Part shown: positions 8,943 to 16,551 of the stretch, piece by piece | How positions within the stretch are numbered: position 1 is the stretch's first letter | How the letters are laid out: every line of letters begins with the position of its first letter | From: Cellvibrio sp. UBA7671 | GTDB taxonomy: Bacteria; Pseudomonadota; Gammaproteobacteria; Pseudomonadales; Cellvibrionaceae | DNA length: 64,000 nucleotides | NCBI GenBank assembly: GCA_002483145.1 | Contig: DLHJ01000003.1 | Coordinates: forward strand, 124,001 to 188,000 | Direction: 5' to 3' | Translations under genes and position numbers: made by a program | Notes under the pieces: model-generated | The model's database searches: none | The model's input: the letters and a program-made list of their open reading frames with translations, nothing else | What the model was told of the DNA's origin: nothing

Positions 8943-9001
8943 TAGCGAAGATTTTTACCCTATATGCTTTGTAATGTTGCCTTTTTATAACAGTTCCTGG
9001 C

Positions 9002-11293
9002 TTATAAGGGCTCCAGCGCGAAGGCGGCCAAATCTGATGCATCCAGATACGAGAGCCGATCATAGCCGTTGGTTGCCAGTGCGGTTACATACACATGTTC
9101 AGCAAAAGCAGCCTTTCCTCCAGCAACACAAACACCTAACAATTGCGCGGGCGAAAATCCCTCGCGGTAAATGCTATTGCTATCGCGCGTGTAATTATCC
9201 GCATTGCCAATCACCATGCCACTGGCATTGGTAAAGCCTTGTTGCAATGCATCATTGCAGGTGCCTTTTTTCACCACAAAACTAAAGGTTGCAAAATTGT
9301 GTGGATGATAGGCGCGGAAGGCAACTTCAATATTGGCATTAGGCGGATAAGGCACAAAGCCACAGCAGTCAGACGAAACTTCGCTGCCATTCACTTTGAT
9401 TTTATAAATCGTCGCTTCACAGCGTTGGTTATCCACACGTGCACTCATGGTAAAGCCATCGGCATTGGCACCGTTCACTAACAAATACTCATCCGGTGCA
9501 TCGATGGAAGGCGCAAAGCTGGTGTAGTGCGGCACTTGGAAAATGTGTTTTGGAATTACTGCCAATTTGTTGCCGTTGACATCAAACAATTCCAGCACAA
9601 ATTCGTACAGGCCATCGGCAAATTGTGTTGAATCCACGCTCGCCGTAATGGTGTTTTGATCCCAGAGCGGGCTCAACTCCGGCGCATTAACCGGATTGGA
9701 TGCCGGAAATGCAGGCGGGATTATGTATAAATCATCCTGGCCGTTGAGCGATACCGGACCCAACTTAAAGGTATTCTGGCCAAAATGTTTATGGTTAAGT
9801 GCATCAAAATATTCATAGGTATAGGCCTTGTGTAGCGCCTGGCCTTTATGCAGAGACATTAGCGCAGTTGCAGGCGAATTGGACAAATCCGCATTGCGCA
9901 ATTGACGATAACTCCAGCGGTAATAGTACATGCCATTCGCGGGCAAACCGCTGCCAAATTGCACAACAAAATTGAGTGTGCCACCAAACGGCCGGCGATA
10001 ATTATCCAGCGCACTGCTGCCACCGGTCATAAACACATCGGTCAAACCCACATGGTTAAATAATTTCCCCTGGATCACCGAGTATTGATCAGCCTGTTTG
10101 ATATGGTTAACGCTTGCGCTGGAACCAATGGTTTTAATCCACACAATATCGCCATCAATGACATCATTACATTCCCAGCGCACACGCGGATCGGTAACGC
10201 GGATTGTGACTGAACTGCCGCACAGATAATCCCAATAAGTATTGCAAGGCACCGAGGGTTTATAAACGGTTGTCCAGACACCATTGATTAAATATTCCAC
10301 CCAAAAATACAAATCCGGTTTGTCACCATCATTCCAATAATGGAAAGTGACATCAAAGGCGCCGTTCAAATCGGTATAAGCCAAAGCGACTTGGTCGTAG
10401 CGGTAAAAATACGGCCACAGCCAGGAGACATGGCAAAAATAGGGATGGAAAAGTGCAAAATTTTCCACAATCGATTTGCGAATGGCCGCTGCGCTACCTG
10501 AGTTTAATTGGTTAAGGATTTTTGGTGATGAGAGTATCGCAGTCTGCGCGGCAACCAATTGCGCTGGCGCACTGGCCGCCTCCTCTGCAGTTTGTTTGCG
10601 CTCAGTTAAACGGCTCAATGGCGAACGGGAGCGCGCGCTCAACTCGGATGCTGCATTAAAATTAAAAGCGCGCACACCCGGCGGTTCTGGTTGCGGATTC
10701 AGCTCAGCAATCACTGGGCCTACTGGATCGAATATAGATGGATCAAAGGGTTCTGGCTCTGGAATCGGGAACGGCCATTGCGGTGTTGCGATAATTTCGG
10801 GAATTTTAATAATGATGCGATCCGGAATTTTACTGATTAATAGCCAGATCCTGTCCACTTCGCATATATGCACCCGCGCATGGCAAATACCGCGATCTTG
10901 CGTGAGCGTACCGAGCGAAAAATTTTTAATTACGCGCCCGCGCACCCGGCAGGAGCGACGCAACCAAAGCAGCGGATAATCGCGGGGAATTAACACCGGG
11001 TTGAGAAGCCCTTCGCGGTTGAAATCCAACACCACTTCAAAAGGTTTGAAACGCTCAAGCTCAGCGATAGTGGCAATGTCATCTATCGCTTTATCACCTG
11101 CAGGAGCGACCAACACTTTATACAAGCGCGGGTTCGCGCCCGCCGTTTTAAACTCCACGGCTTCACCGCGCACGGCGGTTTTTTCCAGCAACTTACCGCT
11201 GCGGGAAAACAAAAAAGCAACCAGGGGAATATCTTCCTCAGGTTTTCCATCGAACCTAAGCGGAATAACAAGATTGTCAAATGATGTGTTCAT
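9002..11293 (-). CDS. Large protein of unknown function (763 aa), divergent from the MNIO/RiPP genes
   Basis: I do not recognise this family. There is no signal peptide or membrane segment. The N-terminal 170 residues look beta-rich (carboxypeptidase-regulatory/transthyretin-like) and contain a Cys-bearing stretch SCRVRGRV...GICHARVHICEVDRIWL, followed by a Pro/Glu-rich linker (WPFPIPEPEPFDPSIFDP, NPQPEPPG). The middle (about 270-400) has many aromatic residues and several Cys (FHPYFCHVSWLWPYFYRY, CNTYWDYLCGSS), and the C-terminal half is beta-sandwich-like with further Cys (DNQRCEAT, SDCCGFVPYPP). Ribosome site GAGAGGA precedes the ATG. It is divergent from the Tat-peptide/DUF692 genes 505 bases away; a functional link is only suggested by position. 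Confidence 0.8.
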   Translation of the reverse strand: MNTSFDNLVIPLRFDGKPEEDIPLVAFLFSRSGKLLEKTAVRGEAVEFKTAGANPRLYKVLVAPAGDKAIDDIATIAELERFKPFEVVLDFNREGLLNPVLIPRDYPLLWLRRSCRVRGRVIKNFSLGTLTQDRGICHARVHICEVDRIWLLISKIPDRIIIKIPEIIATPQWPFPIPEPEPFDPSIFDPVGPVIAELNPQPEPPGVRAFNFNAASELSARSRSPLSRLTERKQTAEEAASAPAQLVAAQTAILSSPKILNQLNSGSAAAIRKSIVENFALFHPYFCHVSWLWPYFYRYDQVALAYTDLNGAFDVTFHYWNDGDKPDLYFWVEYLINGVWTTVYKPSVPCNTYWDYLCGSSVTIRVTDPRVRWECNDVIDGDIVWIKTIGSSASVNHIKQADQYSVIQGKLFNHVGLTDVFMTGGSSALDNYRRPFGGTLNFVVQFGSGLPANGMYYYRWSYRQLRNADLSNSPATALMSLHKGQALHKAYTYEYFDALNHKHFGQNTFKLGPVSLNGQDDLYIIPPAFPASNPVNAPELSPLWDQNTITASVDSTQFADGLYEFVLELFDVNGNKLAVIPKHIFQVPHYTSFAPSIDAPDEYLLVNGANADGFTMSARVDNQRCEATIYKIKVNGSEVSSDCCGFVPYPPNANIEVAFRAYHPHNFATFSFVVKKGTCNDALQQGFTNASGMVIGNADNYTRDSNSIYREGFSPAQLLGVCVAGGKAAFAEHVYVTALATNGYDRLSYLDASDLAAFALEPL

Positions 11294-11798
11294 GAAAAAA
11301 TCCTCTCAAGAAAAATGTTGGCCTTAATAAGCAAGGCATAAAACACATTTACGTAGTGAGGAAAATTGCTGTATTCGCCAGCCGGATAAATGCTTCACCG
11401 CAGCTTTCCCAAAAGGAAAACCACGCTGCACTACAAAGGCGCGACGAATAAGAAAGATAAAAAACACTAACCGGCAAATTTCCTTTTACGACTGGTGAAT
11501 GGTTCCACAGCCACTGGAAGTATCTCCTCTGGCGCTTCATCCCTGGTGCATCTGCGGAAGCGCCTTCATCCCAAAGGCAACGACTACCACACACTGTGAT
11601 GCTAAGCCTCCATACACACAGAAAGCTGTGATTTATTCATATCCCGTTCGGGTAATTAATCACAGTAAACAGCGCTCTTTTTTCACCGCCATCGCTTGCA
11701 GAGAAAGAGAATAATTTGAGGTAAGGGCAAAACGCCTTTCACTAGCAAGGAGGCAAGTTTTGTTCTTTAATCCCATTAATCTTTTTAGGAGAAGGACC
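11294..11798. other. Divergent intergenic region between the 763-aa gene and the RiPP-like genes
   Basis: 505 bases that must hold promoters for both directions. A minus-strand 81-codon frame (11349-11594) has no ribosome site and odd composition, so I do not count it. I see no clear long inverted repeat. Immediately before the downstream ATG lies the strong ribosome site AGGAGAAGG. Confidence 0.4.
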
Positions 11799-12170
11799 AT
11801 GTCAGAAGATAAATCAGTAGATACCAAAATCGATGAATCTGCCACTAAAGAGCGTCGCGATTTTTTGCGCAACTCAGTGCTGGCAGCAGGTGCGGTGGCT
11901 ACGTTGGCGGTAGCGGAATCTGCCAGCGCGCAAACCTGCTATGACGCGGGTGGCAATGTGATAAAAGCCACCGGCACTCAGGTTATCGATGTAGCCTTTA
12001 ATAGCAGTGACCTGGTGATGGATGATTTGTACAGTGTTATCAAACAATTAGGCAAGCTGACCGGCTGTTTAAATTGCGGCTTTAACGGTTTTGATTTACG
12101 TTTTCGCATCAATCCGGTAATCCGCCTGGATACACGTATTCCCGCTGCTGCAACCCTGTCACAACGCTAA
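11799..12170 (+). CDS. Tat-signal peptide precursor, candidate substrate of the adjacent MNIO enzyme
   Basis: 123 residues from the ATG at 11799, chosen for AGGAGAAGG just upstream; an earlier in-frame ATG at 11760-area gives an implausible N-terminus. The leader has a twin-arginine motif (ERRDFLRN, Arg19-Arg20), a hydrophobic Ala-rich segment and a likely signal-peptidase site after SASA (residue 44). The mature part of about 79 residues has exactly three Cys: C47 right after the cleavage site and C90/C93 in GCLNCGFNGFDLRFR. The gene lies 64 bases before a DUF692 oxidase gene, as metallophore/bufferin-type precursors do. It lacks the EGKCG repeats of known bufferins, so the substrate role is inference. 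Confidence 0.7.
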   Translation: MSEDKSVDTKIDESATKERRDFLRNSVLAAGAVATLAVAESASAQTCYDAGGNVIKATGTQVIDVAFNSSDLVMDDLYSVIKQLGKLTGCLNCGFNGFDLRFRINPVIRLDTRIPAAATLSQR

Positions 12171-12234
12171 GCCTTTTATTGCGCCGGTAAGTGCCCAGCG
12201 CATTTATCGGCGCGATTAATGTCGGGAGAAGGAA

Positions 12235-13170
12235 ATGCTGCCACAAAAATCACTGCGCAAACTCGGTGTAGGGGTTAATTATCACTGGGATTTTCAAGAT
12301 CTCATCTACACTCACCTCGACCGTATCGATTACATCGAAGTAAGCCCGGACATTTTTTGCGAAGAAGTTATCGCAGCAAACAACAGCCGTCACTTTCAGC
12401 TGGATGCGCGTAAATTGCAGGACGCACTCGCACTGGGGCGCAAATGCCCGGTAATTGTACATGGACTCGGTTTATCGCTCGGTTCTGCCAGTGGTTGGAA
12501 TGCTGACTATTTAACAATGCTCGACAATTACGAGGAACAACAACCTTTTTGTTGGCACAGCGAACATCTGGGTTTTACTCTGGTAAAAAATCCGGATGGA
12601 TCGGAAGACCATGCTGGCTTGCTGTTGCCAATGCCGTTTACAGCAGAAGCATTGGATTTACTTTGCCCGCGCATCCAACATTTGTGTACACGTTACAGCG
12701 CACCTTTCCTGATCGAGAACACCACCTATTATCTGCCGCATTTTTCCAGCCATGCACAGGCTTGGGATGAAATTGATTTTTTAAACCAACTACTCGCCCG
12801 CACAGATTGCGGACTCTTACTCGATTTATATAATTTTTATTGCAACGCGATCAATTTTGGCTTTGATCCTTACGCGGCATTGGCCCGTTTACAGTTTGAT
12901 CGTGTGATAGAAATTCATATTGCCGGTGGCGTTACTCATGAGGGTTTTCTATTGGATGTACACAGTAGTGAAGTGCCGGAAGAAGTATGGGCGCTGCTCG
13001 AATGGATTTTGCCGAAGTTGCCCAATCTTTGTGCCATCACCTATGAGTTACTTGAACAAGCATTGCCGCTAATGGGCGAGGCTCGCATTATCGCGCAATT
13101 GGATCGCTGCAAATCCCTGTGGAATTATTATCTGGATTGCCGCAAGGAGTTGGACAATGTCGCTGCTTGA
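12235..13170 (+). CDS. DUF692 multinuclear non-heme iron oxidative enzyme (MNIO, MbnB/BufB-like)
   Basis: 311 residues, the usual DUF692 length, a TIM-barrel. Candidate metal ligands of the family are all present: H76 (VHGLGLSLGS), H108 and H111 (WHSEHLG), E161 (LIENTTYY), D197 and N200 (LLLDLYNFY), H228 (IEIHIAGG), H243 (DVHSSEVP) and E271 (TYELLEQ). Known members (MbnB, TglH, bufferin BufB) use two or three irons to oxidise Cys residues of ribosomal peptides into oxazolone/thioamide, thiooxazole or related groups. The preceding gene encodes a Cys-containing exported peptide and the next gene, overlapping by 14 bases, a probable partner. Cytoplasmic; AGGAGAAGG-like site (GGGAGAAGGAA) before the ATG. 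Confidence 0.92.
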   Translation: MLPQKSLRKLGVGVNYHWDFQDLIYTHLDRIDYIEVSPDIFCEEVIAANNSRHFQLDARKLQDALALGRKCPVIVHGLGLSLGSASGWNADYLTMLDNYEEQQPFCWHSEHLGFTLVKNPDGSEDHAGLLLPMPFTAEALDLLCPRIQHLCTRYSAPFLIENTTYYLPHFSSHAQAWDEIDFLNQLLARTDCGLLLDLYNFYCNAINFGFDPYAALARLQFDRVIEIHIAGGVTHEGFLLDVHSSEVPEEVWALLEWILPKLPNLCAITYELLEQALPLMGEARIIAQLDRCKSLWNYYLDCRKELDNVAA

Positions 13171-13768
13171 TGTACAGCGCAGTCTGGTGGGTTTGACGCG
13201 CGGCTCAATGGGTGCGTATGAAAATGCCCTTCAGCTCACACCGGGTGAGCAAGAATGGTTAACGCAGATTCTGGATTCAAAAGGGTTGCAGGTTACCCAG
13301 CAAATTCAGCAGTGGTGGCGCATGAGCCGCGTATGTTCAACTGCCCCCCTGACAATAGAATTACTCAAACGCACTGGCCTTACCGACGTGATTGTTGAAT
13401 ACATCACTAACCAACCAGTACGCACCTTATTTTTTGCGGCGGAGCTGGAACAGTTTAAACAATTTTTAGAAAACCACGCACAGGTCGATACCACTACTAA
13501 AACGCTGATTGCATTTGAAGCGGGCATAAAATCCGCTAGCCAACTGGCGTCTGCCAATTTAACGACACCGACTTTTTCACTATCGCTCAAATTTGAACAG
13601 AATCCGCTCGAACTTTTTACCGCCCTGCTCACGGGAACGCCGTTGCCCTCCGCAGATTCCCAAGGGTTTCAACTTGTTGTTGATTCAACTCTGGAGACGT
13701 TATGGCGCTGCTATCGCAACGGCGCCATCTCAACACATTCGCCTTATGAACAAGTTGCCGCCCGATAA
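13157..13768 (+). CDS. Probable MNIO partner protein (DUF2063/BufC/MbnC position)
   Basis: 203 residues starting within the end of the DUF692 gene (14-base overlap), so tightly coupled. By position and size it matches the partner subunit that accompanies MNIO enzymes and binds the precursor leader (MbnC, TglI, BufC). The N-terminal half is helical (LLDVQRSLVGLTRG, TPGEQEWLTQILDS, IQQWWRMSRVCSTAP). The C-terminal half mixes strands and a helix that ends ETLWRCYRNGAIS. Sequence similarity to canonical DUF2063 is weak by eye, so the role is inferred from context. Confidence 0.65.
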   Translation: MSLLDVQRSLVGLTRGSMGAYENALQLTPGEQEWLTQILDSKGLQVTQQIQQWWRMSRVCSTAPLTIELLKRTGLTDVIVEYITNQPVRTLFFAAELEQFKQFLENHAQVDTTTKTLIAFEAGIKSASQLASANLTTPTFSLSLKFEQNPLELFTALLTGTPLPSADSQGFQLVVDSTLETLWRCYRNGAISTHSPYEQVAAR

Positions 13769-13849
13769 CACTGGGGGTACGCCAGCGAACAGACTATCTC
13801 TCCGCCAAAAATTACAATGAAATCTGTCTATCACAACGAGCAATACATC

Positions 13850-14068
13850 ATGAACACTACAAAAATAATTGCCATCGCCCTGCTTGTCCTTGGCATATTA
13901 GGTTTGGCTTACGGCGGATTCAGTTATACCAAAGAAACTCACGAGACCAATATCGGCCCACTGAAGCTAAGCGTTAAAGAAGAGCAACGGGTCAACATTC
14001 CCATTTCATTGGGTATTGGTTGCTTGTTGTTTGGCAGTTTGTTGTTGGTATTGCGCAATAAATTTTAA
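13850..14068 (+). CDS. Small two-helix inner-membrane protein
   Basis: 72 residues from the ATG at 13850; a longer in-frame start at 13817 would overlap the preceding intergenic sequence with no ribosome site. Transmembrane helix about 4-21 (IIAIALLVLGILGLAYGG), a periplasmic stretch rich in charged residues (TKETHETNIGPLKLSVKEEQ), and a second helix about 48-66. It resembles the widespread small conserved membrane proteins of Proteobacteria with the same YTKETH...GPL pattern, of unknown function. Lies 81 bases after the MNIO partner gene; whether it belongs to that operon is unclear. Confidence 0.7.
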   Translation: MNTTKIIAIALLVLGILGLAYGGFSYTKETHETNIGPLKLSVKEEQRVNIPISLGIGCLLFGSLLLVLRNKF

Positions 14069-14246
14069 TTCTCCGCCTCGCCAGAGCGCGTACGCCGTGC
14101 GCGCAATAGAATAAAATCCAATCTTGTTAACAACACCTCTATGCGCTATCACCCCGGATAGCCTACACTTCGCTCACCAGTCATTTTCTGGTTGAATAAA
14201 AAACTACACCTCCTGTCGCTTCCAATTAATATCCGGGTTTTATTGA

Positions 14247-15137
14247 ATGCACCAATTCATGTGGATACTTGTGCTGGCAATTATTGCCGGTGTTGCCAAC
14301 GCTCAAGCTCCTGCAAATCCCGCCCCACAGACCTTGGTTGTGACGCATAAACTCCCCGATTTTGGCGATTTAAAACGCAAAACCTTCGAGCAGCAGGTTA
14401 TTCAATTGGCACTGGAAAAAACCCAGAAAAAAGTCGGTGCATTTGAGATGGTGCCTGTGAACGTCATTTCCCGCACCCATGCCATAGCTGCACTCAGCCA
14501 AAACCTCTACCAAAATTTTGTGATGGTACTCAGCTACGAAGATGCGCTGGTAGAGAGCGGCAACCTTATCTATATTCCGTTTCCCGTCGAGTTAGGTGCG
14601 CTGAGTTATCGCATCTGCTATGCCAATAAAAAATTCACTACGCAAGTGCAGCAGATTGAAAATTTAAGTCAGCTTAGACACTACAAAATGGGTGTGGGCG
14701 CCGGTTGGCTGGATGCAAAAATTTTACAGCACCACGGCGTGCCGATTGTGGAGGGGAGCAATATCACCGGCCTGTTCCGTATGACCCAAGCCGGCCGCGC
14801 TGATCTATTCTGCCCCAGTCCGACCGAATATTTTCATGAGTTGAAGACGGCCAAAATATCCGATCTTCAATTGGAAAATAAACTCGCCCTCTATTATCCC
14901 CTGCCTAAATTTTTGTTTAGTCACAAGAGCAATCAAGTACTGATGGATCGCCTCAAAGAAGGTATTGAGATCGCCTATAAAGATGGCTCTTATCAACATT
15001 TATGGCGCGCAGCGCATGAGGAAGATTTAAAGCGCGCAAAATTGGACGAACGCCATTTTATTAACATGGACAATCCTTTTATTACGACACTGAAGGATGA
15101 TTACAAACAGTATCTGTTCAATCCGCTTACATATTGA
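14247..15137 (+). CDS. Periplasmic solute-binding-like protein (SBP_bac_3 type)
   Basis: 296 residues with a cleavable signal peptide (about 1-20, ends VANAQA). The rest has the two-lobe pattern of family 3 periplasmic binding proteins: LVVTHKLPDF at the start, LRHYKMGVGAGWLDAKIL as the hinge, GLFRMTQAGRADLF for the second lobe, and a C-terminal MDRLKEGIEIAYKDGSYQHLW helix. No ABC permease or kinase is nearby, so it may be a sensor-like or orphan binding protein. The family relationship is by motif; the ligand is unknown. Confidence 0.8.
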   Translation: MHQFMWILVLAIIAGVANAQAPANPAPQTLVVTHKLPDFGDLKRKTFEQQVIQLALEKTQKKVGAFEMVPVNVISRTHAIAALSQNLYQNFVMVLSYEDALVESGNLIYIPFPVELGALSYRICYANKKFTTQVQQIENLSQLRHYKMGVGAGWLDAKILQHHGVPIVEGSNITGLFRMTQAGRADLFCPSPTEYFHELKTAKISDLQLENKLALYYPLPKFLFSHKSNQVLMDRLKEGIEIAYKDGSYQHLWRAAHEEDLKRAKLDERHFINMDNPFITTLKDDYKQYLFNPLTY

Positions 15138-15381
15138 ATTGATCGACCACCAGCCGGTGCTCGCCATCAAACACCGGCAGGCACCACCCCTATCTGCAAA
15201 AAAACCCTCCTCTCTGTAACCAAACGTCGGGAAATGTAAAAAGCATTGCGGGCTTATTCCTTGCATACTAGCCTCACAACTTAATGCGCCACGTTTCAAT
15301 TGCTGGCTTTTCAACAGAAAGATTGCACCAGCAACATAAGCCGATTGTTTACTAAAAGAATTGCTTCAAATTAATCAACTG

Positions 15382-16551
15382 ATGGATATGTTCATGTTTG
15401 CGTCTGTAAATCGTTTGTCGCGCGGCCAGCGCTGGTTAGCGGCTATCGCTGTGGTTCTCGTCTTGCTACTGGTGTGGTTTTTTGGTGTGCGTAAACCAGC
15501 GGAAAAACTACCGCCGCCACCGAATCCCTGGATGGGGCCTACCCCTGTACATGTGGTGAAAGTGACCAAAGAAGATTTGAAAGTGCACATAAAAGCGATT
15601 GGCAACGTAGCGCCACTCAATACGGTGACAGTGCGCAGCCGCGCCGATGGGCAATTGCTGCGAGTGTTGTTTGAAGAGGGGCAGCAGGTGAAAGCAGGCG
15701 AGTTATTGGCCGAGATCGACCCTGCGACTTATAAAGTCCAACTGGATCAAGCGGAAGGGACGCTGCAAGAAACCCGCGCGCAGTTAAAAAACGCGGAAGA
15801 AGACTTACGCTTATACGAACAACTGCTGACCAAAAATTCCATTGCCAAACAACAGTATGACAAGCAGGTTTCGCTGGTAGAGCAATTGCGCGGCACGTTA
15901 AAAAATCATACCGCACAGCTGGATGACGCGCGCCTGCAGCTGTCTTACACACGCATTACCGCCCCCATTACCGGGCGCCTGGGGCTGCGCCGCGTGGACG
16001 TGGGCAACCTGGTAAAAACCGGCGATGCCAACGGCTTAGTGACTATCACCCAAACCCAGCCGATTGCGGTCTCTTTCACCATACCGGAAAACCAATTGGT
16101 GGCCGTGCGTGGTGCATATCTGGCCGCTGAAAAAGCCTCTACGGCGTTAACGGTTGAAGCCTGGGATCGCACTGAGCAGAGTTTATTAGCAACCGGCAAA
16201 CTCACTACGCTCGATAACCAAATCGATACCGCCACCGGTACCCTGCGCTTGAAAGCCCAGTTCGACAACACCGACGACAGCCTCTTTCCCAATCAATTTG
16301 TGAATGCGCGCCTGCACTTGAGCACACTTGATGGCGCTGTGACCATTCCTATCGATGCAGTGCAATACGGGTCCAAAGGGACTTATGTGTATGTAATTGA
16401 AGAAGGCAAAGCCAAGATCCGCCCGATTAAATTGGGCTCACTTGAAGGTCCGCGCACCTCCGTATTGGAAGGTTTGACCGAAGGTGAGCAGGTGGTGTTG
16501 GAGGGGATCGACCGCCTCTGGGAAGGCAAAGAAGTGAAGGTGATGGAATAA
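15382..16551 (+). CDS. mdtA: RND efflux periplasmic adaptor (MdtA-like membrane fusion protein)
   Basis: About 389 residues from the first ATG (15382); two further ATGs at 15388 and 15394 and an upstream TTG are possible starts, none with a strong ribosome site. N-terminal membrane anchor (about 17-37, WLAAIAVVLVLLLVWFFGV), biotinyl-lipoyl halves (GNVAPLNTVTVRSRADG and ITAPITGRLGLRRVDVGN), a coiled-coil hairpin (about 115-190) and the beta-barrel/MP domains. This is the adaptor that links inner-membrane RND pumps to a TolC-type channel. First gene of an mdtABC-like operon; no outer-membrane channel gene is present. Confidence 0.9.
   Translation: MDMFMFASVNRLSRGQRWLAAIAVVLVLLLVWFFGVRKPAEKLPPPPNPWMGPTPVHVVKVTKEDLKVHIKAIGNVAPLNTVTVRSRADGQLLRVLFEEGQQVKAGELLAEIDPATYKVQLDQAEGTLQETRAQLKNAEEDLRLYEQLLTKNSIAKQQYDKQVSLVEQLRGTLKNHTAQLDDARLQLSYTRITAPITGRLGLRRVDVGNLVKTGDANGLVTITQTQPIAVSFTIPENQLVAVRGAYLAAEKASTALTVEAWDRTEQSLLATGKLTTLDNQIDTATGTLRLKAQFDNTDDSLFPNQFVNARLHLSTLDGAVTIPIDAVQYGSKGTYVYVIEEGKAKIRPIKLGSLEGPRTSVLEGLTEGEQVVLEGIDRLWEGKEVKVME

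Follow-up and report, generated by a model that had tools for sequence, protein, structure and literature searches.

Among the MNIO (DUF692) enzymes of known chemistry, most act on Cys, and small groups modify Asp, Asn or Phe instead (PMC12452194). One of them, TglH, for which nine iron ligands have been reported, acts on Cys together with an RRE partner, removing the beta-carbon from a Cys that a PEARL ligase has added to the C-terminus of a signal-less scaffold peptide (PMC10880893). Bufferins and captophorins are described as carrying a Sec signal and many Cys or Lys-Cys repeats, and as being paired with PME-type-1/DUF2063 partners (PMC12452194, PMC13097082). PMC12452194 states a general rule by which PME-type 1 is the partner of precursors with a Sec signal and PME-type 2 that of precursors without one; it also describes the PME-type-2-linked precursors as being without signal peptides, lists precursor families with CxxC (adjamnio-7) and CxxCC (adjamnio-IV), and raises the question of how premature Sec export is avoided.

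The locus considered here is an apparent exception to that rule. It lies at 11799-13768 of the analyzed window (the whole stretch of 64,000 nucleotides, positions 124001-188000 of contig DLHJ01000003.1 in the 5.04 Mb genome of Cellvibrio sp. UBA7671), where the ORF list has three genes, all on the forward strand: one for a putative precursor with a Tat-type signal, P0001 (11799..12170, 123 aa), one for a DUF692/MNIO enzyme, P0002 (12235..13170, 311 aa), and one for a partner protein, P0003 (13157..13768, 203 aa). The peptide and MNIO genes are separated by a gap of 64 nt, the MNIO and partner genes overlap by 14 nt, and ribosome-binding-like sequences (AGGAGAAGG and GGGAGAAGG) stand upstream of the ATGs of the peptide and MNIO genes. 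These three ORFs, the gene overlap, the Cys set of the peptide and its cleavage site had all been called in a sequence-only reading of the window and were confirmed in the sequence. No promoter above chance was found around the triad (one against 4.2 expected from shuffles), no useful terminator was seen there on the forward strand, and positions 9000-16000 of the window gave no Rfam match. A phage or defence origin of the triad was considered and rejected, as its three proteins had no PHROGs or PADLOC match at E 0.01; profiles A4 and A2 (MNIO) both found no relatives in viral contigs. In the plasmid search, P0002 matched 354 records, all at <60% identity, the MNIO-partner fusion of genome G226 (discussed below) matched 19, with coverage <80% in all, and P0003 and a G226 peptide matched none. 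As to the neighbours, a 763-aa protein that matches neither Pfam nor NCBIfam families is encoded at 9002-11293 (reverse strand) and a 296-aa probable substrate-binding-like protein with no family match at 14247-15137 (forward strand), after which come MdtA/MdtB-type RND genes. The flanks vary beyond the triad: three Cellvibrio loci have the 296-aa ORF and the RND adaptor gene, the other two lack them, and a reading of the fetched flanks showed no further gene shared by all five loci.

The triad is a real, conserved and rare cassette of the soil bacterium Cellvibrio, being present in 5 of the 21 genomes of the genus, always in the order peptide, MNIO, partner. A P0001 search of 96 relatives gave five genomes at E 0.001, each of them a Cellvibrio; when the five-peptide profile was run against all 21 genomes of the genus, these five scored E <1e-67 and any other match E 0.018 or worse. 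Every peptide-bearing Cellvibrio genome (5/5) has the enzyme pair, which bears out the proposed tie between the two, and no convincing case of the peptide without the pair was met in the 21 Cellvibrio genomes or among the 96 relatives; homologues spread widely away from DUF692 genes, the outcome that the sequence-only reading had named as contrary to it, were thus not encountered in the genomes searched. P0001 itself carries R19R20DFLR and ASA|Q45, has Cys at positions 47, 90 and 93 only, and has a predicted mature form of 79 aa. Compared across five sequences, its pN/pS is 0.65 for residues 1-18, 0.14 for 19-44, 0.17 for 45-57, 0.26 for 58-85, 0.13 for 86-107 and 0.48 for 108-123, the core and the Tat signal being the most constrained of the six regions; since amino acids are conserved over synonymous change, the ORF is a real gene under purifying selection rather than a frame open by chance. 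None of the three Cys varies among the five Cellvibrio homologues, and the two within the core (G89-CLNCGFNGFDLR-F102; 12063..12104, forward strand) are invariant in all seven peptides compared, i.e., also in the two from G226. The core Asp is conserved and the Phe mostly so: D99 is invariant, position 98 is Phe in 5/5 Cellvibrio peptides and Trp in both G226 ones, and GFNGFD, whose conservation alongside C90/C93 had been put forward as a check, is kept in four of the five homologues, the remaining one having GLNGFD. The peptide has no EGKCG motif, just as had been remarked, and no BufA or DUF2282 match (Pfam/NCBIfam). A lipoprotein was rejected on reading, SAQTC not being a lipobox, and the predicted model of P0001, which has a beta-alpha-beta-like pattern, is unusable at a pLDDT of 42.4.

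Tat is the export route for proteins that are already folded. The signal of P0001 (residues 1-44; 11799..11930, forward strand) combines a twin-arginine motif (RRDFLR, 19-24), a moderate h-region and an ASA cleavage motif; RRDFLR and the AxA site are invariant in all five Cellvibrio homologues, and TatC is encoded in the genome (231.8 bits). The twin-arginine stretch is constrained far more than the surrounding n-region, judging by the pN/pS values above for 19-44 and 1-18. The library models fall just below their cut-offs (TIGR01409 16.6 bits, cut-off 16.7; PF10399 17.7 bits, cut-off 24), and crude hydropathy does not set the signal (1.71) apart from six bufferin Sec signals (1.45-2.53). The twin-arginine leader of the sequence-only reading thus held up, and P0001 would, on these sequence features, be exported via Tat. 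Literature searches on MNIO, DUF692 or bufferin with Tat/twin-arginine found no Tat-type MNIO precursor, those on RiPP precursor peptides and twin-arginine found nothing on MNIOs by title, and we know of no other Tat-exported RiPP. The main text of PMC12452194 contains neither “Tat” nor “twin-arginine”; small ORFs with signal peptides upstream of MNIO genes are reported in its Table S2, in the hundreds, and P0001 may be among them.

As had been proposed, P0002 belongs to the DUF692/MNIO superfamily (PF05114, 190 bits, cut-off 25); by alignment, each of the nine iron ligands of TglH has its counterpart there: H76, H111, E161, D197, N200, H228, D241, H243 and E271, the equivalences of H111 and E271 being our own reading of the alignment. 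The set is complete in the Cellvibrio and G226 enzymes, while the related enzyme of genome G042 has N and R in place of D241 and H243 (third-iron ligands in TglH), and that of G541 likewise. The five NCBIfam MNIO models all remain sub-threshold on P0002 (BufB 155/310, HvfB 139/360, ApyH 103/400, ChrH 67/600 and MbnB 18/325 bits), the bufferin MNIO of G226 reaching, for comparison, 391 on BufB. The metallophore-type context that the sequence-only reading had brought in is weakened: in a tree of 33 rows over the C-terminal 166 columns, in which ApyH, ChrH and PbsC rows are absent and for which the program warned of long branches for MbnB, G226, TglH and G042, the five Cellvibrio enzymes fall with TglH (8HCI), G226 and G042 into an 8-row group (support 100/99), separate from the bufferin- and HvfB-type rows. 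By this sequence comparison the enzyme is one of the TglH branch and not of the bufferin branch, and a metallophore role, though possible, is not favoured by such kinship. The triad shares with TglH-TglI (pearlin, 3-thiaglutamate) the tree group, the AGGxxHxG and DxH segments, the nine ligands and a separate partner, and differs in having an internal Cys and a Tat signal where the TglH pathway has an appended C-terminal Cys, a PEARL ligase and a signal-less peptide. No PEARL-like gene is present in the triad of the Cellvibrio loci, which places it outside the pearlin pathway; what it adds is a TglH-like enzyme whose putative substrate has its Cys internally.

P0003 matches no Pfam family and lacks the DUF2063 signature (PF09836); profile comparison of the partner with a DUF2063 protein was not significant (probability 0.7%, E 0.078). 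Homology links it to the C-terminal portion of the G226 MNIO-partner fusion (hhalign E 2.5e-8 with 95% probability; hmmsearch E 0.0016, the best reversed-sequence control being at 1.6). The top Foldseek match of its model, which is poor (pLDDT 58.7), is NGO1945/3DEE, the reference MNIO partner, at a weak E 3.9 and prob 0.72, with MbnC at rank 14 (E 7.3). Its gene follows the MNIO gene and the DUF2063 signature is missing, both traits of PME-type 2, and P0003 looks like a protein of that type. PMC12452194 shows, as a PME-type-2 model, a protein from Cellvibrio sp. KY-GH-1 that is 215 aa long; the partner in genome G013 also has 215 aa, and on this length and the shared genus only, the published example is probably of the same partner family as in the Cellvibrio triad. 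The “undescribed class” of the sequence-only reading was therefore too strong: a Tat type was not found in print, so that part stands, whereas the enzyme groups with TglH and the partner is of a PME-type-2-like family already published with the KY-GH-1 example (PMC12452194). Like bufferins and captophorins/oxazolins (BufA/HvfA, BufB/HvfB, DUF2063), the triad has an exported Cys precursor directly before an MNIO and a partner; unlike them, it has a Tat-type signal, a PME-type-2-like partner and a single CxxC, its precursor matches no family of theirs, BufB and HvfB stay sub-threshold, and PF09836 is absent from the partner. With the PME-type-2 MNIO clusters and adjamnio families of PMC12452194, it would share the partner type; it is set apart from the PME-type-2-linked precursors, by their descriptions and not their sequences, through having a signal. 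What is new is, then, a Tat signal on a precursor that is paired with a PME-type-2-like partner, which would solve the export timing problem in another way and makes the question of premature export directly testable in three small genes.

A possible signal-less relative is found in G226, one of 369 class genomes sampled, in which two small signal-less peptides, each carrying LGCTACCSGWDIRFDI, precede a 494-aa MNIO-partner fusion; their motif GCTACCSGWDIRF resembles the Cellvibrio core. In this region (L071 5017-9414), a BufA2 bufferin operon (BufA2 at 93 bits, cut-off 60, with a BufB-type MNIO and DUF2063) lies directly upstream of these CxxCC peptides and the fusion, and an FTR1-cytochrome c protein is encoded downstream of the fusion on the opposite strand. 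The peptides compare at hhalign E 3.4e-4 with a probability of only 38%; the local alignment scores of the window peptide with the two G226 peptides are 37 and 40 (21-26 for six bufferin-type controls) and were reached by shuffles in 13/5000 cases for one pair and 3/5000 for the mean of five. With the Cellvibrio-only profile, hmmsearch did not place the G226 peptides among the top 16 of 4955 frames and gave higher ranks to a frame of L006 (E 2.9e-5) and one of L007 (E 0.002). Both were rejected as relatives and put down to chance, the match in L006 being unrelated to any MNIO and that in L007 sitting in the wrong frame inside genes of a different kind. In the reverse search, the Cellvibrio peptides came out at E 0.5-3, a level that reversed controls also reached (best 0.49). 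The similarity in sequence is thus only suggestive of kinship between the G226 and Cellvibrio peptides, and the shared gene order is the stronger argument for it.

The enzyme clade was found in three genomes outside Cellvibrio (G226, G042 and G541). At E 1e-50 it was present in 7 of 144 family genomes, namely the five Cellvibrio ones and G042 and G541, both of one other genus, in which the MNIO-partner pair (L043 3846-5416 and L072 5623-7193, respectively) has no recognisable precursor; a 717-aa ORF upstream of this pair reads as pilin-like and has no Pfam match. The class, order and phylum samples overlap and each covers a small part of its group. Within them, the A2 (MNIO) profile at E 1e-40 matched five of the 369 class genomes (the window's own, G226, G118, G153 and G310), G118 being a bufferin-type row outside the clade and G153 and G310 (L074, L075) being loci left out of the tree and scanned for motifs only; the A6 profile at E 1e-48 had four matches in 390 order genomes, none of them new; and the G226 fusion at E 1e-30 matched only the window genome among 398 phylum genomes and only itself among four genomes of its own order. 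The A4 profile at E 0.02 matched 16 of the 369 class genomes, the window genome and G226 by construction and the other 14 weakly (E 7.8e-4 to 0.019); the one of these that was inspected, G328 (L092), was rejected as IscA-like on reading. The 24 nearest-looking MNIO loci scanned (a set in which L092 has no MNIO and some entries repeat the same place) had no Cellvibrio-type peptide; their precursors were of bufferin, EGKCG or other types and were accompanied by DUF2063-like ORFs downstream.

The reading that we favour, at somewhat better than even chances, is that of a minimal three-gene RiPP-type cassette in which Cys of the CxxC is oxidised before Tat export. The precursor would be synthesised with its Tat signal; the partner would bind it, with either the signal or the strand-like stretch VIDVAFN as the probable contact, and present its C-terminal stretch, GCLNCGFNGFDLRF, to the MNIO, whose iron cluster would, with O2, oxidise one or both CxxC Cys, a thiooxazole-type heterocycle being the first guess for the product. 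The folded and possibly metal-loaded product would then leave via Tat, and after cleavage at ASA|QTC by signal peptidase, the 79-residue modified protein would stay in the periplasm, most likely with a metal-binding or redox role. In favour of this are the linkage of peptide and pair in 5/5 peptide-bearing Cellvibrio genomes, the strongest constraint falling on core and Tat signal, the nine ligand counterparts, the fact that TglH, of the same tree group, works with an RRE partner on Cys, and the order of peptides, MNIO and (fused) partner being repeated in G226 with a similar Cys motif; MNIOs of known chemistry, as noted at the outset, also mostly act on Cys. It is weakened by the G226 peptides being missed by the Cellvibrio-only profile, by the pair in G042 and G541 having no recognisable peptide, by the poor partner and precursor models, and by the tree having 166 columns and long branches.

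The Asp, Asn and Phe chemistry of the small MNIO groups (PMC12452194) weakens it further, the core having such residues, and the same cassette might instead modify F95, F98 or D99, the CxxC serving as a disulfide or metal ligand; the invariance of D99 and the aromatic residue kept at position 98 would fit, yet C90 and C93 are just as invariant in the seven peptides, and the closest known enzyme, TglH in a tree without ApyH, PbsC and ChrH rows, acts on Cys, which makes us consider such a substrate residue unlikely, at perhaps a third of the weight given to Cys oxidation. That P0001 is an ordinary small protein of redox or metal function, exported via Tat, and that the enzyme pair acts on something else, is suggested by the CxxC, the beta-alpha-beta-like pattern of the low-confidence model and the peptide-free pairs of G042 and G541, but appears improbable given that the peptide does not occur without the pair in the 21 Cellvibrio genomes or among the 96 relatives, that the pair adjoins no other small Cys-rich ORF in the window, and that in G226, too, small CxxC peptides directly precede the enzyme; P0001 is treated here as the putative MNIO substrate. 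Least probable of all, and hardly to be expected, is that P0001 belongs, as a divergent member, to the known bufferin/captophorin class of copper-binding thiooxazole peptides in the periplasm: the enzyme superfamily is the same, the Cys peptide is exported, and BufB is the best of the five sub-threshold NCBIfam matches, yet the enzyme falls in the TglH group, the partner has neither DUF2063 nor any other Pfam match, the core has two Cys only, the EGKCG, BufA and DUF2282 hallmarks are all absent, and the signal is of the Tat and not the Sec kind.

Going beyond the favoured cassette with Cys oxidation, a new MNIO RiPP class, in which a leaderless-type CxxC family with a TglH-like MNIO and PME-type 2 gained a Tat signal in Cellvibrio, is a bolder and rather doubtful proposal. 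Were it true, modification and folding would be finished in the cytoplasm, Tat proofreading rather than PME-type-1 masking would prevent early export, and the Cys modification would possibly be of an unseen kind. Two further ORFs stand out beside MNIO genes. In G008, of the same genus, an 82-aa Sec/lipoprotein-like ORF with an SGGCGH end (L106 2802-3050) lies just upstream of an MNIO gene and looks like another unusual precursor; in G052, a 578-aa protein with C-terminal CKGQGGCG segments (L049 81-1817), encoded just before an MNIO and a DUF2063-like partner, is possibly a large MNIO substrate.
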